From Halobacillus yeomjeoni (lineage in GTDB: Bacteria; Bacillota; Bacilli; Bacillales; Halobacillaceae): a stretch of DNA of 64,000 nt. The DNA lies in contig NZ_JAIVAI010000002.1 in assembly GCF_020171525.1 (NCBI RefSeq), forward strand, positions 186,001-250,000, in the 5' to 3' direction. Shown piece after piece: positions 14,925 to 27,790 of this stretch (position 1 is its first letter; each line of letters begins with the position of its first letter). The notes under the pieces are model-generated. The model was not told the origin of the DNA. It ran no database searches and saw nothing but the letters and a program-made list of their open reading frames with translations. The position numbers were made by a program, and so were the translations under genes.

Positions 14925-16157
14925 TCAACCAGCCACTCTTTCTTCTTTCCAATCCTTTTCTGAGCGATCGATGACTGTCGTCCCGACTAAATCACCGGTC
15001 ACATTCAAAGCGGTCGCTCCCATTCCGACCAGCACATCGACAGCGGTCAGTAGTGCAACAGCTTCCATCGGTAAGCCGACTTGTGCAAAAACAGTGGCAA
15101 TCATGATGATTCCGGCACCTGGAACACCGGCAGTACCTACAGAAGCAAGCGTTCCTATGATGACGATTTGGATGATCGACCCGAAACTTAACGGATCTCC
15201 TACGACATTAGCAGCAAACACGGCAGATACAGCAATCCGAATCGCTGCACCGTCCATATTGATGGTTGCACCTAATGGCAGACTGAAGCCGTATAAACTC
15301 TTCTTCAGGTTCAACTTTTTAGCGGCATTCAACGTGACAGGCAATGTTCCTGAACTACTCTGCGTGACAAACGCTGTCAGCATAGGAGTTCGCGCTTCAC
15401 GGAAAAATTGAGCAGGGGAATTTTTCGTCACAAGAAGGAACCCGATATAAAACAGAAGTTGTACAAAGATCCCGATATAAAGAACCCCGATGAACCCTCC
15501 GAGAGACAATAACGTATCCGTCCCTTGCGTACCGACGATTTTAGCGACAATGGCTAAAATACCGATCGGAATATACTGCAGAATACCTTTCATGACCGTG
15601 AGCGTCACTTCATTCAAAGCTTCCACTCCCCGGTACAACCGGTTCCCGATTTCTTTATACTGTTGACTCGAACGCAGATAAGAAATGGCAATGCCGAAGA
15701 CGATTGCTGTAAAAATGATCCCGAGCAGATTCATTTCTGAAAAAGCTGTCACGATATTGGTCGGGACAATATTCAAAAGGACGCTTGAAAGCCCTGGATT
15801 GTCCGGAACCTCAAAGCTTTCACTTCCTGTGAGTGAAAGACCTGCCCCAGGATTGAAGAGCTTGGCGATCAGCACACCGACCATAAGGGCGAACGCCGAA
15901 GTAGCCAGGTAATAGAGGAAAACCTTTCCTCCCTTGCGTCCAAGACTGCCAATATTCGTTTGATTGACTCCTACGATGACGGTGAACAAAATTAACGGTA
16001 CGATGATGAACTTAAGCAATCGAATCATCAGGTCACCGAACGGCTGTAATACAGCAGCGTCACTTCCGAAAACTAAACCTACAATAACGCCCAATATGAG
16101 TGCTGCGGTAATCTTTTTTATCAAAGATAATTCCACGTATTTCTTGAAGATGGACAT
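14925..16157 (-). CDS. Dicarboxylate/amino acid:cation symporter (DAACS family)
   Basis: 410 residues, about eight helices plus two re-entrant hairpins, as in GltPh-type transporters. The hairpin-1 serine motif QSSSGTLPVTL, helix-7 motif INMDGAAI and hairpin-2 GVPGAGII are intact, so sodium-coupled transport is expected. In helix 8, however, the sequence GMGATALNVTGDL has Ala381 where acidic-substrate members carry Arg, and Gly378 where amino-acid members carry Asp (alignment by eye to the invariant NVxGD). Glutamate or aspartate are therefore unlikely substrates; a neutral or non-amino-acid substrate is possible. Start ATG with AAGGAGAG upstream. Confidence 0.9.
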   Translation of the reverse strand: MSIFKKYVELSLIKKITAALILGVIVGLVFGSDAAVLQPFGDLMIRLLKFIIVPLILFTVIVGVNQTNIGSLGRKGGKVFLYYLATSAFALMVGVLIAKLFNPGAGLSLTGSESFEVPDNPGLSSVLLNIVPTNIVTAFSEMNLLGIIFTAIVFGIAISYLRSSQQYKEIGNRLYRGVEALNEVTLTVMKGILQYIPIGILAIVAKIVGTQGTDTLLSLGGFIGVLYIGIFVQLLFYIGFLLVTKNSPAQFFREARTPMLTAFVTQSSSGTLPVTLNAAKKLNLKKSLYGFSLPLGATINMDGAAIRIAVSAVFAANVVGDPLSFGSIIQIVIIGTLASVGTAGVPGAGIIMIATVFAQVGLPMEAVALLTAVDVLVGMGATALNVTGDLVGTTVIDRSEKDWKEERVAG

Positions 16158-16274
16158 GACCGTTCTCTCCTTTTATATCATTTAATTCCTATGAATTTAG
16201 TAAGCATTGAATTACAATCTATCTGATTTTTGTCCTGGTGTCAAAAACAAAGTTTATGAGTCTGTTTAAGGATA

Positions 16275-16392
16275 GGCCTGAGGAGGATCAAGGTCCCCCA
16301 CGGAAAGGGAGTCATTCTAAAAGGCCGCCTCACACAAATTACAGGACAGAAAGAGCTTATATGAGCTCACATGTGCAATAACAGAGCTTTCA
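16275..16392 (+). repeat. Truncated copy of the hairpin repeat (copy C)
   Basis: Matches the reverse complement of the left half of unit A at 11.1 kb: GCCTGAGGAGG, CCCACGGAAAGGGAGTC, then the same arm CATTCTAAAAGGCCGCCTC (16313-16331) and flank (CACAAATT..GGACAGAAAGAGC..CAATAACAGAGC). The other half and arm are missing. Confidence 0.8.
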
Positions 16393-16410
16393 ATAAAATT
16401 TCCGGACATA

Positions 16411-16450
16411 AAAAACGCCGGTTCAAGGATATACCCTGGAACCAGCGTGT
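16411..16450 (-). terminator. Terminator of the Z1-domain gene
   Basis: Minus strand: ACGCTGGTTCCAGGG and CCTTGAACCGGCGT pair with mismatches and are followed by TTTTTTATG. Confidence 0.78.
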
Positions 16451-16456
16451 TTATTT

Positions 16457-18649
16457 TTATTTCACTGTCTTATTCGCGTAAACTGTCGGAGATGTATGTC
16501 GCTGGGCAACCAGTACCGGCCACCAGAAAGGCGCACCTCTCCAACCATTCTCTTTTTTCCCTTCCTGTCTGAGCATGATCAGGGCAGGGTGGTTTACAGC
16601 GACTTTACGAGCGACGCTCAATTCTCCTTTTTCTCCTCCCGGTGTATCCGGGGAGTTTTCGAACTTGCCATTCTCTTTGAATCTCCGGATTTGGCGCTTC
16701 TCACGTGTCAACAGCCACACATAAGCACCGGACCCGTTTTCAGAACTCAAGTAATCGAGGACACCGTGATACTCTTCAAGATGAAAGTCTCTTCCTTCCT
16801 CCATTTCAAGGGTGGAGTGTATCAGACCGATCAGCTCTTTCGCATCCTCCAGCCGGACCAAATACGCGCCGTTTTCCGTATAACGGGCATTCTTTTTCAG
16901 TTGTTCCACTCTCCGGTCAATCTCACCGACCGTTTTTTTAATATGTGTTTTATATCCGGTCTGAAAGCCGATCGGGAGCATCCGCTTGTGAGGCTTTATC
17001 ATCGTCAGATTGGATAACAAAAGCTTATTCGGACTGCACGGCTGGATGGAAGAATCCATATCACGCTGGACGAAAACGACTCCCCGCTTGTGCCCTCCGC
17101 GCTCAAACGCATGTCTGAGCTCACGGTCGAATTCGTGGATCCGCTTCATGACAGCATAAATCTTCTGTGTCGTATAAAACCTCGTAACCGCAAGATCTTC
17201 CATCGGTCTCGCTCCGTACATCCTCGAATGCTGAAGGACGGTATCCTGTTGGAATGACTTCGGATTGCGGCCATAGAAAAATCCGATCAAATTGTTGATG
17301 GTGACCCCGCGGTCGAGAATCTGTCCTCCGATAAAGATATTCATCGGAGCTCTCAACTGAAGCTGGCCGGTTCCATCCAGCAGTTCAGTCACATCTTTTT
17401 CAGAATTGACGATCGAACTGACGATGTATTCTTCATCAAGGGACATCCGTACTTCTTCATATACGTCATTGTACGTAGGGATGGTATTGCCTTCGAGAGC
17501 TTTTACCGATCGAATCAAATCCTGATAGGAAGCATGGATCAGTTCTTTGAAAACCGTAGACTCTTCCCTTGCCCCTTCAATCAATAAATCTTCGAAACTC
17601 CGAATCAATTCTCCCTGCCAGGCATGAGCATGCTTTCCACGTTCTGTATGAATGATAAAGGAATACTTTTCAGGACGACTGCCTTCCTGTTTTTGCTGCC
17701 AGCGCCGGATACTGCTTGCAACAATGAAGTTCAGGATGGCTTCCCTGATGTTCGGAATGTTTTTCTGAGTAAGCAGACGGTCCATCTTCACGCGCCGGCC
17801 GTCCATCTTTTTCATCACTTCCAGTTCATTTTCCTTCACCTCATGGTAAAGGTAGGAAGCTACATCCCCTTCGACGTCTGCACGATCGAAATACACATCT
17901 CCTCCGACATAACGACCATGGATGGGAACCAGTTCTGTGAAGGCCGGACGGATCGGCTCAAAAACCTTGCCCTCATGGATGGTCATGTCTTCCGGCTGAA
18001 GGTACAGCGAATACGGAGTAGCGGTCACTTGAAGAAAAGAAGGCCGGTTCAAAGTCGATCGCAATTCATTGATCTTGGACGCAATGACCCGCATGGTTTT
18101 CAGGTTCTGCTCCCGTTTATGCTCATAGGCGACACTCGCAAAATCCGCTTCATCATCAATGAATAAGATTTTTCTTCCTGATAGCCCGGGATATGTCTCA
18201 AGAAGCGCTTCCTTCAAACGATCAAGATTGTGGGTCTCTTTTTTTACAATCAACGCGAGCTTCTGTGACAACTCATACTTCCTGAGATTCTGAGGCATCG
18301 ACATGATGTCATAAACCCTCATATCATCCGCTTCTATCCGTTCTTCAAACTCCTGATGAAGTCGTGCATAAGTCTGCTTGACGAGCGCGTTCGTCCCTTT
18401 CGTCAAAACGACGACCACATCATATCCATGGTCATAGGCAAGCCCCATCACTCCGATGAAAGTCCGCGTCTTACCAGATTGAATTTTCCCTAGAAGCATT
18501 CCCGGGTGGTGCTCGGACGTCGAAGTCTCCAGCAATTTTTCCATCGTCCGGGTCATGCACGATTGAAGCTCTTCATTATATTGGTTCTTTCGTTTCAGGT
18601 TTTGAAAAAAAGGTCCGTCGACTTGGACAGATGTTAATGATCGATTCAT
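16457..18649 (-). CDS. Stand-alone Z1-domain superfamily 2 ATPase
   Basis: A 730-residue protein with an SF2 helicase-like core: Walker A GKIQSGKT (54-61), Walker B DDEAD (165-169), motif III TATP (209-212). The second part has the Z1 signature GGQILDRGVTINNL (around 436-449) and QDTVLQHSRMYGAR, equivalent to the second RecA-like domain. Z1 proteins are best known next to MORC-type ATPases and PD-(D/E)XK nucleases in modification-dependent restriction loci; here there is no nuclease or methylase neighbour. ATG start, ribosome site CAAGGAGCG. A role in defence or DNA processing is only inferred. A repeat remnant lies just downstream. Confidence 0.82.
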   Translation of the reverse strand: MNRSLTSVQVDGPFFQNLKRKNQYNEELQSCMTRTMEKLLETSTSEHHPGMLLGKIQSGKTRTFIGVMGLAYDHGYDVVVVLTKGTNALVKQTYARLHQEFEERIEADDMRVYDIMSMPQNLRKYELSQKLALIVKKETHNLDRLKEALLETYPGLSGRKILFIDDEADFASVAYEHKREQNLKTMRVIASKINELRSTLNRPSFLQVTATPYSLYLQPEDMTIHEGKVFEPIRPAFTELVPIHGRYVGGDVYFDRADVEGDVASYLYHEVKENELEVMKKMDGRRVKMDRLLTQKNIPNIREAILNFIVASSIRRWQQKQEGSRPEKYSFIIHTERGKHAHAWQGELIRSFEDLLIEGAREESTVFKELIHASYQDLIRSVKALEGNTIPTYNDVYEEVRMSLDEEYIVSSIVNSEKDVTELLDGTGQLQLRAPMNIFIGGQILDRGVTINNLIGFFYGRNPKSFQQDTVLQHSRMYGARPMEDLAVTRFYTTQKIYAVMKRIHEFDRELRHAFERGGHKRGVVFVQRDMDSSIQPCSPNKLLLSNLTMIKPHKRMLPIGFQTGYKTHIKKTVGEIDRRVEQLKKNARYTENGAYLVRLEDAKELIGLIHSTLEMEEGRDFHLEEYHGVLDYLSSENGSGAYVWLLTREKRQIRRFKENGKFENSPDTPGGEKGELSVARKVAVNHPALIMLRQEGKKENGWRGAPFWWPVLVAQRHTSPTVYANKTVK

Positions 18650-18682
18650 GGTGTTTCGCTCCTTGTCACTCTCACTATCTAT

Positions 18683-18724
18683 GACTATACGTATGATTTG
18701 TGCTTTTATTACATAGGTATAGTC
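18683..18724. promoter_or_regulatory. Inverted repeat upstream of the Z1 gene
   Basis: GACTATAC (18683-18690) and GTATAGTC (18717-18724) form an 8-bp dyad 34-75 bp upstream of the Z1 start codon, in the region expected to hold its promoter. Possible operator. Confidence 0.35.
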
Positions 18725-18863
18725 TAGTACGACGTTCGTTCATCTCCATACATAACCAGCTTTCTTGAAGAAAGGATGGGGCAGGCAGATGGAACACATG
18801 AAAAAAATTATAACATCTGAGACTTAAAATTACTGCTGGAAAACTTTAAATTGGAGGGATTCG

Positions 18864-19958
18864 ATGCCGACCATCAGTTTGTGTATGATCGTGAAGGATG
18901 AAGAGGAAGTATTGGATCAATGCTTGAACAGCGTCAAAGAGGTGTGTGATGAAATCGTCATCGTCGACACAGGTTCCATCGACCGCACCAAGCAAATCGC
19001 ATCCAAGTTTACGGATAAGATTTTCGACTTCACATGGGTGGAGGATTTTTCTGCAGCTCGAAACTATTCGTTCAGCCTAGCGAATATGGAATACATTTTA
19101 TGGCTGGATGCAGATGACCTCGTGCAAAAAGAAGACTTTGAGAAACTTTCGAAGTTGAAAAATGAACTCGATGAATCCATCGACGCCGTATCGATGAATT
19201 ATGACATCAGTTTTGACGCATCCGGAAACACCACCTTTAAACTAAGGAGAAACCGGCTAGTAAAAAAATCCAAACAATATCAGTGGATTGGAGTGGTGCA
19301 CGAGTACCTGGATGTACAGGGGAATATCCTTGAATCGGATATCGTCATCACCCACACCAGACATTTGAGAAAACAAAATACGGATACGAACAGAAATCTT
19401 CGCATTTATGAAGCCCAGCTGAAGCAAGGGAAACTCTTATCTCCAAGAGACCTCTATTATTATGCCAATGAGTTGAAGGATCATCGCAAATACAAGCGTG
19501 CGATCCTCTATTACGAAAAATTCTTATCCCTCTATCAGGGGTGGATGGAAGATAAGGTCATGGCCTGTCTATACCTGGCTGATTGTTATCAGGAAATCGG
19601 AGCCAAAGAAAAAGTGATGGACATCCTGTTGGAAACGTTCAAATATGATAACCCAAGACCAGAGGCCTGCTGTAGAATAGGTGATCACTTCAGAAAAAAT
19701 GAAAAGTATCACACCGCAATTTTCTGGTACCAGACGGCCACCCAGGTGCCCATCGATCACATCCGGGGATTCTACCAGCCCTCCTACTCGACATGGATTC
19801 CCCACCTTCATATGTGTGTCTGTCATTGGAAACTTGGAAATGTGGAAAAAGCTATCGAGCATAACTCCATTGCCGGTACGCACAAACCTGAGGACGAAAG
19901 TGTGTTGAATAATAAGAAGTTTTTCTCCGATTACTTGAAAGAAAAGCGTTCTGAGTGA
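18864..19958 (+). CDS. Family 2 glycosyltransferase with C-terminal TPR helices (SunS-like)
   Basis: 364 residues. The GT-A domain fills about residues 1-185: SLCMIVKDEEEVLDQCL at the start, IVDTGSIDRT, and the metal-binding WLDADD motif. A conserved GVVHEYL segment follows. The remainder (about 200-360) is helical with TPR-like pairs, as in SunS-type glycosyltransferases that modify proteins or cell-wall polymers. No substrate protein gene is adjacent. ATG follows GGAGGGATTCG. It is divergent from the Z1 gene. Confidence 0.85.
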   Translation: MPTISLCMIVKDEEEVLDQCLNSVKEVCDEIVIVDTGSIDRTKQIASKFTDKIFDFTWVEDFSAARNYSFSLANMEYILWLDADDLVQKEDFEKLSKLKNELDESIDAVSMNYDISFDASGNTTFKLRRNRLVKKSKQYQWIGVVHEYLDVQGNILESDIVITHTRHLRKQNTDTNRNLRIYEAQLKQGKLLSPRDLYYYANELKDHRKYKRAILYYEKFLSLYQGWMEDKVMACLYLADCYQEIGAKEKVMDILLETFKYDNPRPEACCRIGDHFRKNEKYHTAIFWYQTATQVPIDHIRGFYQPSYSTWIPHLHMCVCHWKLGNVEKAIEHNSIAGTHKPEDESVLNNKKFFSDYLKEKRSE

Positions 19959-20006
19959 TGACCGACCTGTCTCTTTAAAAGAAGCATATCTCCTCCAAAT
20001 AACTTG

Positions 20007-20040
20007 AAGGTCCAGCTTCCTCACCGAAACTGGACCTTTC
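20007..20040. terminator. Bidirectional terminator between glycosyltransferase and YkvA-like genes
   Basis: AAGGTCCAG and CTGGACCTT pair around a 15-nt loop; T-rich on the plus side. It lies between convergent genes. Confidence 0.7.
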
Positions 20041-20463
20041 TTAATTCAATTTATCCTCATACGCTTTCACATCCATCTTTTCCCCGAACAGCTGCTCCAT
20101 CCTTTCACGGGCTTTCAAGCGTACCTCATCATCAATATGAGAAATCACTTGGTAAATGGCGTACAAGATTACCGCACTGTCATCGGCGAATCCGATCATC
20201 GGTAGAAAATCAGGAATCAGGTCGACGGGTAAAATCAAATACCCGAGAGCTCCGGCGATGGTCAATTTCGCTTTTTTCGGTGTGGAAGGGCTCTGGAATG
20301 CGTAATAGAGCAATAGACTGTAATAAACACTTTTTGCTCCGATCAAGCCTCCGTATTTTTTTATTTTTTCACCATAATCCTTTTTTGAAAAATAATCTCT
20401 GCTTTGTTCGATCGCTTGTCTCGGATTCAGCTTTTGTAAGCGCTCTTTGTACATCAGTTTCAT
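20041..20463 (-). CDS. YkvA-like DUF1232 membrane protein
   Basis: 140 residues. The DUF1232 motif GALGYLILPVDLIPDFLPM followed by GFADD lies in the middle (about residues 75-100), in the form seen in B. subtilis YkvA. The family has a hydrophobic core and no known activity. ATG at 20463 is used because GAGGAGGGG lies 7 nt upstream; a longer in-frame start at 20484 would run through the ribosome site. Confidence 0.85.
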   Translation of the reverse strand: MKLMYKERLQKLNPRQAIEQSRDYFSKKDYGEKIKKYGGLIGAKSVYYSLLLYYAFQSPSTPKKAKLTIAGALGYLILPVDLIPDFLPMIGFADDSAVILYAIYQVISHIDDEVRLKARERMEQLFGEKMDVKAYEDKLN

Positions 20464-20695
20464 ATTTCTCCCCTCCTCTGTCACCTATATTTCCCCCTCC
20501 TGATGAGCTGCAAACTCATTCAAAGGAGCTGTTGAGATTACAAATAACCATACTAATTTTGTATATATTTGTCGAATTAAGATAAATCGCTTACAGTTTT
20601 CCTAATAGTTTGATACTTTTAGTGTAATAGAGTACGAGAAGTGTCTCTAATTCATGCTTTTTGTTTCATAAATCAATGTAAGGGAGCGATAAGGA

Positions 20696-21964
20696 ATGGA
20701 ATTGGATCAAATCGAAAAGGATTCATTAGTGGAAGAAGCACAGCAGGATGCAGAAACGAAGCCCTATTTGACAGCTCTAGTCGGATGGAGTGTACAAGCG
20801 ATTGAAGCTGCAGCCCGTATGAATCGTCCGTTTGTCGTGGTAGGACCACCTGAATTCGAATCGTATGCGGAAAAACACGACATCAAATTCGTCGGATGGG
20901 ATTTCAACAAAATCAATGAAAGTTCTGATGGATTGTACAAGCAGTTGAAAGCGATGGGTGCAGAATTAGCCATCCCCCTTTATGAAGAGTGTGTGGAATG
21001 GGCCGGTGCGCTGAACGCCCGTTTCCGTGAAGAGCCACGCGTCTTCAACAGATCGTTGTTGCTGCGCGATAAAGGGATGATGAAGCGGAAAGCCCAAATC
21101 TCAGGAATCAAAGTCGGTGTCTTTGAAGAAGCAAGAAATAAAGATGACGTAAAGCGATTCTTACAGCGCGTCAACGAAGCATTACTAAAACTGGAAGGCG
21201 ATCACCTCGATCCCATCCACGTCAAACCCCTCGATAAAGCCGGATCCGTAGGTCATATGGCGATCAACACCGTCGAAGGTATAGAGAAAATCCAGGATAC
21301 AGACTTCCCACTATTGATGGAAAGCCATTTGGATGGCCAGGAGTTCTCTTGTGAAGCGTTCGTCCATAAAGGTAAAGTACGCTTCTTGAACATTACGGAA
21401 TATGTACGCTTAGGCTACTCGAATTTCGTACCTGCCTCCCCTAAACTTGAACAGAAACGCCCACAGATTGAAGAAGCTGTCCAAAAACTCGTGGATGCTT
21501 TTGAAATCGAATACGGCGTCATCCACCCGGAGTACTTCCTGACTCCAGATGGAACGCTGCACTTCGGTGAGGTTGCAGCACGTGTGCCGGGCGGCCATAT
21601 TTTCGAATTGATCGAGCGCGCCTATGGATTCAGTGCGTATGAAGCTCAAATTCTCTGCAGTGACCCGAATACGACAGAAGCGGAATTGGAAGCCTTCTTC
21701 CCGAACCCTTATGACTATGACGGGTATGCCGGGTGCTTGATGGTTCATCCGAACATTGATTACGTCCAGGATTTGAACATCCCTGATGAACTCGAAGAAC
21801 ATCCTTACTTTGAAAAACACGACATGTTCACCCCTCCTCAAGGAAAGGTTGCAGAACGTGTCGGATTCGGGAACCATTATGGAACGATTTTCTTCTTCGG
21901 CCGGGACAGTGAAGAAATGTATGATCTTGTGAAAGAATACGAACAGTACGATTTCTATAAATAA
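20696..21964 (+). CDS. ATP-grasp ligase-like protein
   Basis: 422 residues with an ATP-grasp architecture: N-terminal pre-ATP-grasp fold (to about residue 110), a central lid containing HVKPLDKAGSVG and FPLLMESHLDGQEFSCEAF, and the catalytic end GEVAARVPGGH with Glu292 and Arg296, which fit the Mg-ATP ligands of carboxylate-amine/thiol ligases. Such enzymes form amide or peptide bonds through an acyl phosphate. The substrate cannot be told. ATG follows AAGGGAG. The next gene starts 33 bp downstream and shares its terminator, so the two form an operon. Confidence 0.85.
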   Translation: MELDQIEKDSLVEEAQQDAETKPYLTALVGWSVQAIEAAARMNRPFVVVGPPEFESYAEKHDIKFVGWDFNKINESSDGLYKQLKAMGAELAIPLYEECVEWAGALNARFREEPRVFNRSLLLRDKGMMKRKAQISGIKVGVFEEARNKDDVKRFLQRVNEALLKLEGDHLDPIHVKPLDKAGSVGHMAINTVEGIEKIQDTDFPLLMESHLDGQEFSCEAFVHKGKVRFLNITEYVRLGYSNFVPASPKLEQKRPQIEEAVQKLVDAFEIEYGVIHPEYFLTPDGTLHFGEVAARVPGGHIFELIERAYGFSAYEAQILCSDPNTTEAELEAFFPNPYDYDGYAGCLMVHPNIDYVQDLNIPDELEEHPYFEKHDMFTPPQGKVAERVGFGNHYGTIFFFGRDSEEMYDLVKEYEQYDFYK

Positions 21965-21997
21965 GAGATTAAAACCATAAAGGGAAGGAGAGGACTT

Positions 21998-23959
21998 ATG
22001 CCTCAACCGACAGGTGTCATCGTTGAACGATTCGCTCAAAGCTTGGAAGATTTAGAAAAAGCTCCATCTTTTGCAAAATCGAAATATCAGACAGATGTCT
22101 ACCAGGAAGCCAACCGGCTCATTGACGCTGAGAATGGTTTGAATCACTTATACCAATATGCGTACCGCTTCGAAGAGACAGGCGTTTTTCAAGACAGCGC
22201 CTGGGAGCAGGCCAACAAATTGCAGCCCCCTCTCGTCGCGGGATCATTGAAGGCGAAAGGACTGCCGATGGTCATCGAGGTGCTCAGTGAGCTGCGGATG
22301 CTCGCCATCGCTGAGAACAAATACACGCACCCGACCGTGTCTGCAGAAGACGCAGAGGAATTTTTGAATGAAGTCATGGTGCTGAACTTGAATTTACTTT
22401 TCCCTGCTGCTACTGAAAGCACAAGGATTGAGAAACATGAAAACGATGATAAAATCAGCAAGCTGTTTCAATTTTTGATCAGTCATCTATCTTCAAAAGC
22501 TCTCATCAAAACACTCATTCATGAAATCGAACGATTGACAGCACAGCGACCGATTATGATCAAGCGCATCGTATCGATGATTGGTACGGCGAAGAGGATG
22601 CTTGACTCAGATAGTGACGGCGATGATCATGCTGAGTTGAAAAAATATATTGCCGCCATTGAAGGACCATCACCGATGAGCGCAAAATACAAAGATATTC
22701 CGACCTATCGTAAAGAACTGAAGGAACTTTCACGATCCGAATTGATTTCGGAAAGTGTCGCGCTTGCGAAATCGATGCGTGAGACAGGGTTAGTCGCCCC
22801 TCACCATGCGACCATTATCCGGTTCTTATGCAAGCATCACCCAGGCTTGCTGGTCTATACTTTGAACTTAAGCAGTAAAGGAAGCGCCAACCTGGAAGAA
22901 AACATGGAACTCGTGCAGCAAGTGATAAAAGCCTCTATCTTCCCTGCTACAAAACAGGCGATATATGGACTTGCTCTGATGCTTGAGCGCGGCGTGCTTT
23001 CCCATTCCCCTGTAGCTCCCGGACTGCGTAGGTTAGTAGAACTGGACATCCGTGCAGACGTAAGGAACGCTCTACATGAGACCGTCCAGCAAGGAGAAGG
23101 TCTTACAGCGAACAGCATTCTCGTCGCTGGAACTATCCAGGTCCTCGGGCAGCCGCTCGGAGTGGGACAAGGATTCAACCCGACGTGTCAGGCCGCAAGA
23201 GGAATCAGCCTTTGGGCGCAGCATGCCCCTGGATTCCTGCTTGAGATCATCCCGCGTGCAGCGAGAGACGGAGACTTGGACTTCACATTCGAAGGAGCTA
23301 CGATCCATTCCAAAGATTTGAGTGGCGGACTGGCACCTGATCTTGATATGGAACTCGATCCCGTTTCTCTCGTTCTTGTTCCGCATTTGGACAAGATCTA
23401 TAGCGAGATGATGTCGAGAGTCGCGCTCCGCGGCGAAGACGGTCACCGCTGGGTGAACCCGGCCTTTTACGGCAACTGGGTTCCGAAAGGGTTCAGTACA
23501 GTCACCAACCCGATCAGTGGCTTTGTCCAGGATTACAGCGGATTCGTCCGGTTGTTCTATGCGACCCACCACCCTGAATATAACGATGATTATGAATTGA
23601 TTTACCCGAATCCTGTCGGCATTTTCATTACCAATGTCCACGGCAAAATGCTCGGTTTACATGCCGTGTCCATCATTCGGATAGCGAAAGATCCATCAGG
23701 AGTCGAACGGGTCTATTTCTATAATCCAAATAACGATGGTTCCCAGAACTGGGGACAGAACATCGTTCCGAGTGTAGCGGGCAATGGCGAGGAAGAAGGA
23801 GAAAGCTCCCTTCCATTCCATGAGTTCACCTCACGCCTTTACGCTTTCCACTACAACCCTTATGAACAGGGAGAAGCTTACGCCGTAGATGCGAGCGAAG
23901 TGAACGACGTCTTGAACCTGGCGAAGGAAAGCTGGGGCAAAGACTATACCTGGGTATAA
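21998..23959 (+). CDS. Large protein with papain/calpain-like cysteine peptidase signature
   Basis: 653 residues, no signal peptide. The first 380 residues are mostly helical and unrecognised. The C-terminal part has a papain-like set in order: Gln391 and Cys397 in GQGFNPTCQAAR (Gln six residues before Cys, as in papain), His555 in LGLHAVSI, and Asn576 in YFYNPNNDGSQNWG. The His-beta-strand-Asn spacing resembles calpain. A peptidase, transpeptidase or amidase is inferred; no named family is recognised. ATG follows GGGAAGGAGAGG. It is cotranscribed with the ATP-grasp gene and ends in a strong terminator. Confidence 0.75.
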   Translation: MPQPTGVIVERFAQSLEDLEKAPSFAKSKYQTDVYQEANRLIDAENGLNHLYQYAYRFEETGVFQDSAWEQANKLQPPLVAGSLKAKGLPMVIEVLSELRMLAIAENKYTHPTVSAEDAEEFLNEVMVLNLNLLFPAATESTRIEKHENDDKISKLFQFLISHLSSKALIKTLIHEIERLTAQRPIMIKRIVSMIGTAKRMLDSDSDGDDHAELKKYIAAIEGPSPMSAKYKDIPTYRKELKELSRSELISESVALAKSMRETGLVAPHHATIIRFLCKHHPGLLVYTLNLSSKGSANLEENMELVQQVIKASIFPATKQAIYGLALMLERGVLSHSPVAPGLRRLVELDIRADVRNALHETVQQGEGLTANSILVAGTIQVLGQPLGVGQGFNPTCQAARGISLWAQHAPGFLLEIIPRAARDGDLDFTFEGATIHSKDLSGGLAPDLDMELDPVSLVLVPHLDKIYSEMMSRVALRGEDGHRWVNPAFYGNWVPKGFSTVTNPISGFVQDYSGFVRLFYATHHPEYNDDYELIYPNPVGIFITNVHGKMLGLHAVSIIRIAKDPSGVERVYFYNPNNDGSQNWGQNIVPSVAGNGEEEGESSLPFHEFTSRLYAFHYNPYEQGEAYAVDASEVNDVLNLAKESWGKDYTWV

Positions 23960-23974
23960 CTGAATTTACGAAAA

Positions 23975-24010
23975 AGAAGTCTGTCCTTATTCAAGGACAG
24001 ACTTCTTTTT
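23975..24010 (+). terminator. Terminator of the ATP-grasp/papain-like operon
   Basis: AAGAAGTCTGTCCTT and AAGGACAGACTTCTT pair over a 4-nt loop and lead into TTT. Confidence 0.9.
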
Positions 24011-24134
24011 AAGTTTGAATCTGTTACATCTATCGCTTCTCCTCTCATATAGCTGGCCTGCCCGTGCTGTTTGCTTCCCAATGGCGCACGAATGCTGAAA
24101 TCCGTATTGCAATTGAATAAACTGCATATCCCTC

Positions 24135-25424
24135 CTAGAAATCTACCTCTTTTAATAGAGCCGCTCTTCTTTCATTGACTCTTTCATGATCCAGAGGAGC
24201 CCAATATTCAGCAACGAACTTTTGACTGATATATTGAAGGAATTCCCGGATGATTATCTTAACCTTCTTTTCACTATGTTCAGCAATGTAAATCATTGTA
24301 TCCAGTAAAGCTATAAGGATGGAAACATCTTCCCGTCCATAAAAACACACCTGGTGAAAAGTATTGTATAATAATTCATCATTGGATTCGCATTTACATA
24401 TGATCCTTAGGTTTTCCTCCTCATCATTATAAAGAGAATAGCCCCCTCCAGTTTTAAATGCCTCTACTAATGGCACTCTCAGATAATGGATACAACTTAT
24501 AGCGGTATTCGGATCGTTAATGCCCGGCGATATAGCTCTCAATGCAACTTCTACAATCTTCTGAATTGAAAAATGGATATCATGTATTGTCTCTCTTTCA
24601 TCACCCACCGTGATAAATGTATCTATATTCACCTCTATCGGTTCATGGTTGTGATAGACAGCAGCCAAAGCACTCTCCCGAGTAACGAATTGTCCAATGC
24701 TTTGCTTCAGCTCAATCACCACATCTTTTTGTTTGGCAATAGCCATAAGGTTTTCAAAATCGATTATTTGTATATAACCATATTCACTCCCATGCAATAG
24801 TTCAACATTCGAAAAAACAGATATGTCAGGGCAGGATTCCTGAACAGACACGCATTTTTCTTTTTTTAGTGTTTGCCGACTATTTCCGATTGTATTTATC
24901 GAATCCTCGGTCAAATCCCTCAGTAATTTACTGACTTGTATGGAAGTTGCTACATTATGGATGAAATAAGCAAAAAAAGCCAGGCATATAAAAGAAACTA
25001 TGACACCGACAGTAGCTGAAATGACGAGATGTTCGATTTGAGATTTCCTCATAAACAGTAACGTAAGAATGGAGAAAACGAATCCACCCATAAAAATTCC
25101 GAGAACGGTCATAGTAGTCGAGCTTGTAGTGAAGTTTTTGAGAGTTCTGGGAGAGAATTGTGAAGAGTAGGTGGTCAATACTACCATGATGGTTGAAAAA
25201 GTTATTGTAGTCATTGTCAATAATGCTGCCGAAATCGCCCCCAAAGTAGTTTGCGCTAGACCAACATCGGTCAATAGGAAAGAAGGAATAAAAGGACGCA
25301 CTGAATCACTATAAATGGTATCCACCGCTATAACCATTAACGCCAAAACAAAAGCTAATATGCAAGAAACGCTGGGTATAAACCAAATACTTTCTTTGAT
25401 ACGTAACAATACTCGCTTGATCAT
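24135..25424 (-). CDS. DUF2254 membrane protein
   Basis: About 429 residues. The N-terminal half has four hydrophobic helices, with the DUF2254 segment GAISAALLTMTTITFSTIMVV and TYSSQFSPRTL (residues about 55-95); the C-terminal half is soluble, with the conserved RAISPGINDPNTA motif. Function of the family is unknown. ATG at 25424 lies 9 nt after AGGAGG; the longer frame to 25460 is rejected because the ribosome site would be inside it. Confidence 0.85.
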   Translation of the reverse strand: MIKRVLLRIKESIWFIPSVSCILAFVLALMVIAVDTIYSDSVRPFIPSFLLTDVGLAQTTLGAISAALLTMTTITFSTIMVVLTTYSSQFSPRTLKNFTTSSTTMTVLGIFMGGFVFSILTLLFMRKSQIEHLVISATVGVIVSFICLAFFAYFIHNVATSIQVSKLLRDLTEDSINTIGNSRQTLKKEKCVSVQESCPDISVFSNVELLHGSEYGYIQIIDFENLMAIAKQKDVVIELKQSIGQFVTRESALAAVYHNHEPIEVNIDTFITVGDERETIHDIHFSIQKIVEVALRAISPGINDPNTAISCIHYLRVPLVEAFKTGGGYSLYNDEEENLRIICKCESNDELLYNTFHQVCFYGREDVSILIALLDTMIYIAEHSEKKVKIIIREFLQYISQKFVAEYWAPLDHERVNERRAALLKEVDF

Positions 25425-25651
25425 ACAATCTTTCCTCCTCATCCTAAAAGCAAAGTTCAAAACATTGCACTTTCACTACGACAATCACTCTTTTTTTAAT
25501 TACTCCTTTTTACCCATCAAAGCAACTTTGAAAACTATACCTCCAAAAATGTAATGATAATTAGTGATACGTTTTTTCACCTATCCCTTTACCCACCTCT
25601 CCCAGCACATGTGCTATAGTGGTACCATCCTAAAAATACAGGCGGGATTCT

Positions 25652-26845
25652 ATGAATCAACAAGGTTACCAAATCAATGAATCAACGTTTTGGAAAGTGG
25701 CGCTCAGTCTTGCACTCGCCTCTTTTTTTACATTTGCAAGCATTTATGCCGTTCAGCCGTTGTTTCCGGTCTTTGTCCAGGACTTTGATATCAGCATTTC
25801 CATGGCCAGTTTATCTCTCTCGCTGACCGTGATAGGACTTATTGTCGGTCTCATCGTCCTCGGCTTTTTATCCGATCGGTACGGGAGAACCATTTTCATC
25901 AAACTCTCTATCATTGGCGCATCCGTTCCCTTACTATTCATTCCAATCATCGATTCATTTACAGTCATTTTGGCGATCCGCTTCATTCAAGGATTCGCTT
26001 TCGCTGGTCTTCCTGCCGCTGCGATCGCTTATGTAAGTGAAGAAATACATTCGAAACATGTGCATGTGGCTACCGCTCTCTATATAGCGAGTAACGTGTT
26101 CGGTGGGATGATGGGACGTGTATTCGCCGGTGCTGTGACGGACTGGCTTTCCTGGGAAAGCTACTTTTACATATTGACCGGGGTGGGCGTCGTCATCGCT
26201 GGGTTGGTAATCGCTTTGCTGCCGCATTCCCGTTCCTTTACACCCAGCGACCTGACGTTCAAGCACGACATCAAGTCATTGAAATTCCACGTGACCAATC
26301 CGACACTCCTATTGATTTTTGGACTCGGAATCATTTTTCAATTGTCCTTCACTGGGATTTGGACATATTTGCCTTTCTATTTGCAAAACAGCCCTTTCTT
26401 CCTTTCCTTAAGCGCCATTTCTTTCTTTTTCTTCGCTTATGGATTGGGGGTCATCGGCTCTCCCTTCGCAGGCTGGCTGGCAGGTCATTTCGGGTTGAAC
26501 AAAGTCCGGTTGATCGGAACCTTCGTCTTTTCTATCGGAATCTGGATGACCTTGATGCCGTGGCTGTGGGCGGTGGCTCTCGGATTGTGTGTCTTATGTT
26601 CAGGATTCTTTACGGCACACTCCCTGACCGCCTCTTCGATCGGGGATTTGGTCACGCACCATAAAGGAAGCGCCGCAAGCCTCTACCTCGTTTCCTACTA
26701 TATCGGTGTCGTCTTCGGTTCATCTGCCCTCAGCCCGATCTGGAATGCTTACGACTGGGAGGGCCTTGTTCTGATTCTCGGTTTTCTTCCACCTGCCTAT
26801 ATGCTGCTGGTAAGGCTTGTTATGAAACGCACAAAAAAGGTATGA
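25652..26845 (+). CDS. Major facilitator superfamily transporter
   Basis: 397 residues, 12 predicted helices. The MFS loop 2-3 motif is GFLSDRYGRTIFIK, and LAGHFGLNKVRLIG is the equivalent in the second half. Sequence resembles the YnfM/AraJ-like drug or sugar efflux branch; the substrate is not evident. ATG with a modest ribosome site (AGGCGGG). Its stop codon lies inside the terminator hairpin. Confidence 0.87.
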   Translation: MNQQGYQINESTFWKVALSLALASFFTFASIYAVQPLFPVFVQDFDISISMASLSLSLTVIGLIVGLIVLGFLSDRYGRTIFIKLSIIGASVPLLFIPIIDSFTVILAIRFIQGFAFAGLPAAAIAYVSEEIHSKHVHVATALYIASNVFGGMMGRVFAGAVTDWLSWESYFYILTGVGVVIAGLVIALLPHSRSFTPSDLTFKHDIKSLKFHVTNPTLLLIFGLGIIFQLSFTGIWTYLPFYLQNSPFFLSLSAISFFFFAYGLGVIGSPFAGWLAGHFGLNKVRLIGTFVFSIGIWMTLMPWLWAVALGLCVLCSGFFTAHSLTASSIGDLVTHHKGSAASLYLVSYYIGVVFGSSALSPIWNAYDWEGLVLILGFLPPAYMLLVRLVMKRTKKV

Positions 26846-26876
26846 TTCCCTGCAGATTGGAATCATACCCTTTTTT
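26833..26876. terminator. Bidirectional terminator between MFS and HD-GYP genes
   Basis: AAAAAGGTATGATTCC and GGAATCATACCCTTTTTT form a long stem with A and T runs on both sides; it overlaps the 3' ends of both convergent genes. Confidence 0.88.
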
Positions 26877-27765
26877 CTTCTATTAAAATGTTTTCAAATG
26901 CATCGACCACTTCTGTATCATAATGTGTTCCTTTCAACTTCTTCAATTCATCAAGAGCGAATTGAGCTGTGAGTGCCTTTCGATAAGCGCGATCTTCGGT
27001 CATTGCATCAAATGTATCACTGACCGCTATGATCTTCGCCTCAAAAAGAATATCCTCTCCACTGATTCTATTGGGGTAACCAGTCCCATTCAACCGCTCA
27101 TGGTGCTGAAGAATGATTTTCGAAATCTCATCATGATATAGTCCTTTCACCATCTCCGCTCCATCTACCGGGTGACGTTTGATGATACCAAATTCTTCAT
27201 CCGTCAACCGTCCGGGTTTATTCAATACTTCAATAGGCGTATGAATTTTCCCTATGTCGTGTAGGATGCTCGATAAATACAACTGCTCAAGTCTCCCCTT
27301 CGGCAGCATCAGCTTCTTGGCAATCTTGATCGCATACTCCGCCACTCTTTCACTATGTTTATAAGTATAGCGGTCCTTTTTCTCCACCTCATCGACCACT
27401 TTTTTCAAATTCAGAACTTCTTCACTTAACTGATAAAAAGTCGGCTCGTTGATGACCCATAAATAAACAACGTCCGAGAGGGTCGTAAAATGAACGGCTT
27501 CCTCCAAATTATAGGCGGTATAGTGGTCACCTGGACCGAGCTTGATCTTCTCGCCGCCCCATTCACATATCATCTCACCGCTAAGGATATAAAAAAACTC
27601 CATGACACCTGGATTGTCACTGGGGTACACGTAAAACATGTGGTCTTTCGTAATGGTTTGAACCATCACTTCAGTCCCCCCGCCCCTGGACAACAGACTG
27701 ATGTCAAAGTGTTCGAATACGACCTGTTCCAAATGTTCCCCGTTCCTTCCAATCGTAAATGTCAA
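26863..27765 (-). CDS. Cupin-HD-GYP protein (second copy)
   Basis: 300 residues. The N-terminal half is a cupin-like barrel (FYILSGEM, KLGPGDHY, about residues 55-95) without the usual His metal set. After a short helix comes an HD-GYP domain with HDIGK and HHERLNGTGYP, the set seen in c-di-GMP phosphodiesterases. Cupin plus HD-GYP in one soluble chain is uncommon. The start is TTG at 27765, 8 nt after AGAGG. It is a paralogue of the gene at 29108-30007. Confidence 0.8.
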   Translation of the reverse strand: MTFTIGRNGEHLEQVVFEHFDISLLSRGGGTEVMVQTITKDHMFYVYPSDNPGVMEFFYILSGEMICEWGGEKIKLGPGDHYTAYNLEEAVHFTTLSDVVYLWVINEPTFYQLSEEVLNLKKVVDEVEKKDRYTYKHSERVAEYAIKIAKKLMLPKGRLEQLYLSSILHDIGKIHTPIEVLNKPGRLTDEEFGIIKRHPVDGAEMVKGLYHDEISKIILQHHERLNGTGYPNRISGEDILFEAKIIAVSDTFDAMTEDRAYRKALTAQFALDELKKLKGTHYDTEVVDAFENILIEEKRV

Positions 27766-27790
27766 TGGAATCACCTCTGATACGGTATAG

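Follow-up and report, generated by a model that had tools for sequence, protein, structure and literature searches.

A 64,000-nucleotide stretch of the Halobacillus yeomjeoni genome (contig NZ_JAIVAI010000002.1, positions 186,001 to 250,000 of the forward strand; hereafter the window) carries two adjacent genes, here called P1 and P2, that were found side by side at all 80 related loci compared. P1 very probably encodes, to judge by its sequence, an active carboxylate-amine ligase of the ATP-grasp type, and we conclude from the predicted structure of P2 that it belongs to the papain-like superfamily (clan CA) as a separate, calpain-like family. Because the pairing is strict and the gene order fixed, we propose that the two proteins catalyse successive steps, and we rate at roughly even the chance that they are consecutive cytosolic enzymes of a pathway for a small-molecule, peptide-like amide in which P2 transfers or hydrolyses an acyl group. 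A strict association of a calpain-like catalytic domain with an amino-acid ligase of bacteria would mean that a protein-cutting fold has been put to a new use in metabolism; the family is widespread (526 stretches) and yet nameless in Pfam and NCBIfam.

The first-pass annotation of this DNA had described an ATP-grasp gene followed by a gene for a papain-like protein, and both open reading frames (ORFs) are in place on the + strand, P1 at 20696..21964 (422 aa) and P2 at 21998..23959 (653 aa). The four residues that it had assigned to the active site of P2 are likewise encoded there: Gln391 (CAA, 23168..23170), the predicted oxyanion-hole residue; Cys397 (TGT, 23186..23188), the predicted nucleophile; His555 (CAT, 23660..23662); and Asn576 (AAT, 23723..23725). 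When the window P2 was compared with 80 orthologues and 7 paralogues (88 sequences, many of them close relatives), 64 positions were invariant, these four among them, and the four were also invariant in an alignment of 23 sequences that included Halomonas. P2 has two cysteines, of which C397 is conserved and C278 variable. Its motifs QGxNPxCQ, GxHAxxI and YNPNND resemble those of calpains. Within the catalytic domain D454, S457, D481, H483, N487, N578, N579, D580, E598 and E602 are polar and invariant as well; so many beyond the catalytic four suggest a single fixed small substrate and not a general protease. Even the most hydrophobic segment of P2 is only weakly so (mean of 1.28 over 19 residues), and the protein is probably cytosolic.

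An AlphaFold model of the whole of P2, built from 36 sequences, had a mean predicted local distance difference test (pLDDT) score of 85.8 and a predicted template modelling (pTM) score of 0.81. Its N-terminal region (residues 1-365, 21998..23092) is all-helical and the helical part extends to about residue 384, in keeping with the helical region of about 380 residues that had been claimed; for this region no fold was matched with confidence. The catalytic domain (residues 366-653, 23093..23956) was also modelled separately (pLDDT 84.9, pTM 0.82). In the whole model C397 opens helix 397-409, H555 lies within strand 551-564 and N576 comes right after strand 570-575, which we take to be the papain arrangement, so that the proposed papain-type site stands both on the constancy of its four residues (88/88, and 23/23 with Halomonas) and on their papain-like placing in the model. 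A Foldseek search with the whole model returned calpains at ranks 1-4 (probability 0.91-0.97, best E 0.03, none below 0.001). With the catalytic domain, and considering the best 50 of 526 matches, the first 16 chains (10 entries) were all calpains, followed by two staphopains; the calpain matches had probabilities of 0.69-0.99, the best being 1ziv (E 2e-4, probability 0.99). Calpains were therefore top-ranked in the fold search, at template modelling (TM) scores of only 0.3-0.4. P2 shares with the calpain core (C2, PF00648, clan CA) these best fold matches and a Gln six residues before the Cys, and its His, with Asn-Pro about 20 residues later, presumably reproduces the calpain spacing. It differs from that core in its long helical N-terminal region and in having a partner ligase, as well as in matching neither the Pfam C2 family nor any PDB chain by profile.

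The expectation that the partner is an ATP-grasp enzyme was also borne out, as P1 exceeded the curated cut-off of Pfam ATP-grasp_4 (PF13535; 36.7 bits against 27). No NCBIfam model was matched by P1 at its cut-off, the top one being PRK07206 with 49 bits against 302. Among solved structures it comes closest to the L-amino acid ligase 4wd3, to which it aligns over 240 residues including the E..R..GG stretch (E 1.3e-11), followed by 2pn1, 4dim and 3vot; unlike that ligase, P1 forms a group apart that adjoins P2 at every locus examined. Across 81 P1 sequences (the window and 80 others) 88 positions are invariant, including K177, H277, E279, E292 and R296, and K177, E279, E292 and R296, unchanged in 81/81, are by the example of other ATP-grasp enzymes presumably the ATP/Mg signature residues.

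Relatives of P2 were collected in one scan of GTDB species contigs, in which 526 stretches were confirmed by tblastn, and the best 80 of these 526 served as loci. These 80 include many close relatives, 75 of them span at least 7 kb upstream of P2, and their ORFs were counted at 60 aa or longer. In all 80, P1 lies immediately upstream of P2 on the same strand, with gaps of -26 to 129 bases, lengths that depend on the first possible start codon. Among 299 genomes sampled evenly from the order, P1 (E up to 1e-60) and P2 (E up to 0.001) occurred in the identical 47, which cover 19 of 116 genera (hypergeometric 5e-56, a value that carries no correction for kinship), so that the linkage of the two genes, about which the annotation had asked, holds at the level both of loci and of genomes. 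P1 is single-copy in each of the 47 apart from G009, which has two copies. The distances of P1 and P2 correlate over the 80 loci (Pearson 0.80, Spearman 0.68, likewise not corrected for kinship). A second P2 follows downstream on the same strand in 7 of the 80, as though a single ligase supplied two acceptors of the acyl group, and since P1 was found in the same 47 genomes, extra copies of P2 reside in genomes that have the pair.

Within the window the two genes, both on the + strand, are separated by 33 bases that contain the ribosome-binding site of P2 (AAGGAG, 21985..21990), and P1 has its own (AAGGGAG, 20680..20686), 9 bases 5' of the ATG. A terminator-like hairpin with two perfectly paired 18-nt arms, a 4-nt loop and a T run stands 3' of P2 (23971..24010). 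Upstream the unit is flanked by a gene for a DUF1232 protein and downstream by one for a DUF2254 membrane protein; both are on the opposite strand, and the unit therefore consists of two genes. The claim of a two-gene unit thus agrees with the short gap, the hairpin and the constant upstream position of P1, and P1 and P2 are predicted on these features to form a single transcription unit. A promoter scan found 3 candidates where 5.3 were expected, and a terminator scan, which missed the 18-bp hairpin after P2, found 3 against 3.3 expected.

In the pathway that we propose, P1, acting as an enzyme of the L-amino-acid-ligase type, would activate a carboxylate with ATP and join it to an amine, giving an amide. 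P2 would then take this amide and, through Cys397 with His555 and Asn576, and with Gln391 in the oxyanion hole, would form an acyl-enzyme. The acyl group may pass from P2 to a second amine, a transacylation to which we give about half of our belief, or, with a distinctly smaller share, may be released by water in a trimming or recycling step. The active site of P2 is well suited to attacking the carbonyl of an amide or ester, and a peptide or amide pathway is a reasonable reading of the pair. Transfer is preferred to hydrolysis because an immediate undoing of the amide made by P1 would waste ATP, and by analogy phytochelatin synthase on glutathione and BtrH with BtrJ would be precedents for it. 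The sequence, however, does not distinguish transfer from hydrolysis, which counts against that preference.

It is possible, though we favour it clearly less, that P2 is a dedicated hydrolase, P1 making an amide as a store of amino acids or of an osmolyte and P2 degrading that amide when it is not needed, like the peptidase of the NAGGN cluster. It is established that papain-type Cys-His-Asn sites mostly hydrolyse, and some genomic contexts point the same way: two solo paralogues of P2 that adjoin no ATP-grasp gene (L141:8284-10275, - strand, 663 aa; L142:8854-10932, - strand, 692 aa) are divergent from an M20 peptidase gene, in two of the genomes examined, and an M42-like gene, which falls below every NCBIfam cut-off, lies upstream of the pair in L048 and L050. 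To make and break the same bond from one message would nevertheless be futile unless controlled, and the order P1-P2 is fixed in 80/80 loci; nor was an M20 or M42 gene present among the scanned neighbours in the window (14925-27774).

Protein modification, in which P1 would attach a tag (an amino acid or a peptide) to a protein, the calpain-like P2 would trim or remove it and the helical region would dock the target, appears improbable to us. The nearest folds of P2 are indeed endopeptidases, and its whole model faintly matches ARM/HEAT-type scaffolds, but at probabilities of about 0.1, and besides P1 and P2 no neighbour family (ORFs of at least 60 aa) occurs in more than 18 of the 80 loci. 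We infer that the neighbours, together with the many invariant polar positions, favour a small-molecule amide.

The likeness to calpains might itself be a chance local match, P2 having another fold and chemistry, and several results weigh in that direction against a papain-like P2. The TM-scores to calpains are all below 0.5, 1ziv is the only fold match of the catalytic domain with E below 0.001, a profile of that domain retrieved no PDB chain at E up to 10, and the Pfam calpain C2 model (PF00648) matched neither P2 nor 36 catalytic domains at E up to 1. Searches of P2 against Pfam, NCBIfam, PADLOC and PHROG gave nothing significant, and the mean pLDDT is as low as 68 in the block of the model that contains Q391 and C397. 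Against this, four residues predicted from the sequence are invariant in 88/88 and fall on the correct elements of the model, and the best 16 chains are without exception calpains, with two staphopains next; we therefore regard a chance resemblance as very improbable. PF00648 itself, searched as a yardstick for bacterial calpains, was found in 0/299 genomes, but in 0/14 controls as well.

That the two genes are an anti-phage defence pair with P2 as effector protease we consider highly improbable, and a defence or phage origin was rejected on distribution and on empty searches: neither P1 nor P2 matched a PADLOC model (E up to 0.01), P2 had no match in PHROG, phage records or viral contigs, and it is present, unlike a mobile defence gene, in 19 of 21 relatives of the window's genus. 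One of these copies is in two pieces. When the catalytic domain was compared by fold with viral models, no match at E below 0.001 was obtained either. Among named organisms, those closest to the window in P2 are Halobacillus and Pontibacillus (73-82% identity, L001-L014), and in a Bacillota sample of 398 genomes P2 was found in the window's own genome only. Planococcus also carries the pair, as does a Halomonas record, its P2 40% identical and the sole match among 72,556 plasmid records. A sporulation role was set aside on the ground that Planococcus and Halomonas carry the pair.

Known systems offer several comparisons for the proposed amide pathway. Glutathione synthetase is an ATP-grasp enzyme that makes an amide, and BtrJ of butirosin biosynthesis is an ATP-grasp enzyme and the partner of the papain-like acyltransferase BtrH. 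We know of no single operon that holds glutathione synthetase and phytochelatin synthase. The NAGGN osmolyte cluster (TIGR03103/03104/03106) serves a peptide osmolyte and comprises genes for a ligase, for acetyl transfer and for a peptidase. It resembles our loci in that an M42-like gene (L048) and an asparagine-synthase-like gene (L039) lie near pairs, and differs in that these score far below the cut-offs of the trio (56 against 398 and 361 against 570, respectively); none of the trio models was among the matches of six scanned window proteins. The likeness of the pair to BtrJ and BtrH is that of an ATP-grasp enzyme with a papain-like acyltransferase, the latter as set out in a passage on BtrH_N in PMC10318531, where BtrH is stated to act with an acyl carrier protein; P2, by contrast, has no Pfam match to BtrH_N, and the loci hold no constant carrier gene, as no third family exceeds the 18 loci given above. 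The pair is also like glutathione synthetase with phytochelatin synthase, the latter (C83, in PMC10318531) a papain-fold enzyme that transpeptidates the amide, whereas P2 has no match to PF05023. Partnerships of ATP-grasp and papain-like proteins are already known in kind, according to a passage of PMC2922099, and we found no description of the P1-P2 pair in the open-licence literature, the only literature covered. We therefore call P1-P2 a new enzyme family within a known type of partnership.

The neighbourhoods of the pair divide with P1. Scored against the window P1, 19 loci fall at 444 to 544 bits and 61 at 625 bits or more, and within the stretches covered the pair has an AblB-type acetyltransferase gene (TIGR03827) next to it at 18 of the 19 low-scoring loci and at 0 of the 61 others, 13 times upstream on the same strand and 5 times downstream on the other strand. 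That of L039 (L039:5481-6329) scores 228.3 bits against a cut-off of 205.1. The classic beta-lysine pathway was rejected for the pair, since in the 13 genomes checked whose pair-linked AblB passes the cut-off (G001, G009, G017, G019, G028, G031, G034, G035, G051, G589, G614, G700 and G703) the lysine 2,3-aminomutase AblA is absent at its cut-off (525 bits) from 11, three of which show a match at 213-214 bits, and since in the remaining two, G051 and G700, AblA sits no more than about 2 kb from another AblB than the pair-linked one. Five of 20 genomes passed the AblA cut-off in the same search, which therefore works. In a tree of 31 distinct AblB sequences, the five near AblA are split from the 26 others with 99/99 support, a split at which the program warns of long branches meeting. 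These 26 comprise 23 pair-linked and three solo sequences from genomes of the window's genus, and the pair-linked AblB are not one clade because the three solo ones fall among them. A 2013 review (PMC4187189) describes the ornithine acetylation enzyme as unidentified and, relying solely on the genome, attributes the lysine step to Hbhal_3877. The pair-linked AblB group is a candidate for the acetyltransferase of N-delta-acetylornithine or N-epsilon-acetyllysine in Halobacillus.

Genes associated with osmolytes also occur near the pair. In L039 an ectoine synthase gene (L039:9996-10382, + strand; 188 bits against a cut-off of 128) begins 51 bases after P2, and a gene of the same cluster follows P2 in L047; L060 has betaine-aldehyde and choline dehydrogenase genes after P2, and nine loci have a BCCT-like transporter downstream, the one member scanned scoring 356 bits against an NCBIfam cut-off of 408. 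In the other P1 group, a GNAT-like gene lies divergently upstream in 17 of the 61 loci (17/80 overall); of three members scanned, those of L054 and L063 pass the Pfam GNAT cut-off, as does a similar gene in L143, and that of L040 fails it. The names of the organisms, which include several soil genera too, and part of these neighbours suggest a salt role for the pair. Two results tell against it: ectoine synthase is not enriched with the pair (17/47 against 69/252 genomes, Fisher p 0.22), so that an osmolyte link is unsupported beyond the neighbourhoods, and a search of the window's genome (completeness 98.48%) at E up to 0.001 returned neither AblA nor AblB nor ectoine synthase, from which it follows that those neighbours are not essential. 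An osmolyte is thus a possible but weak candidate for the product. With still greater reserve than for the dedicated hydrolase, we raise the idea that salt-adapted Bacillales and Halomonas contain a new class of metabolite, a compatible solute or a stress compound, made by a dipeptide-type ATP-grasp ligase and a calpain-fold transpeptidase with, in one branch, AblB-type acetylation recruited from beta-lysine metabolism. The pair is common to many salt-water relatives of Bacillus, and its product may be a new peptide metabolite.

Elsewhere in the window, the + strand at 18864-19958 encodes a family-2 glycosyltransferase with TPR repeats that is weakly like the peptide S-glycosyltransferase SunS (67.9 bits against a cut-off of 350).

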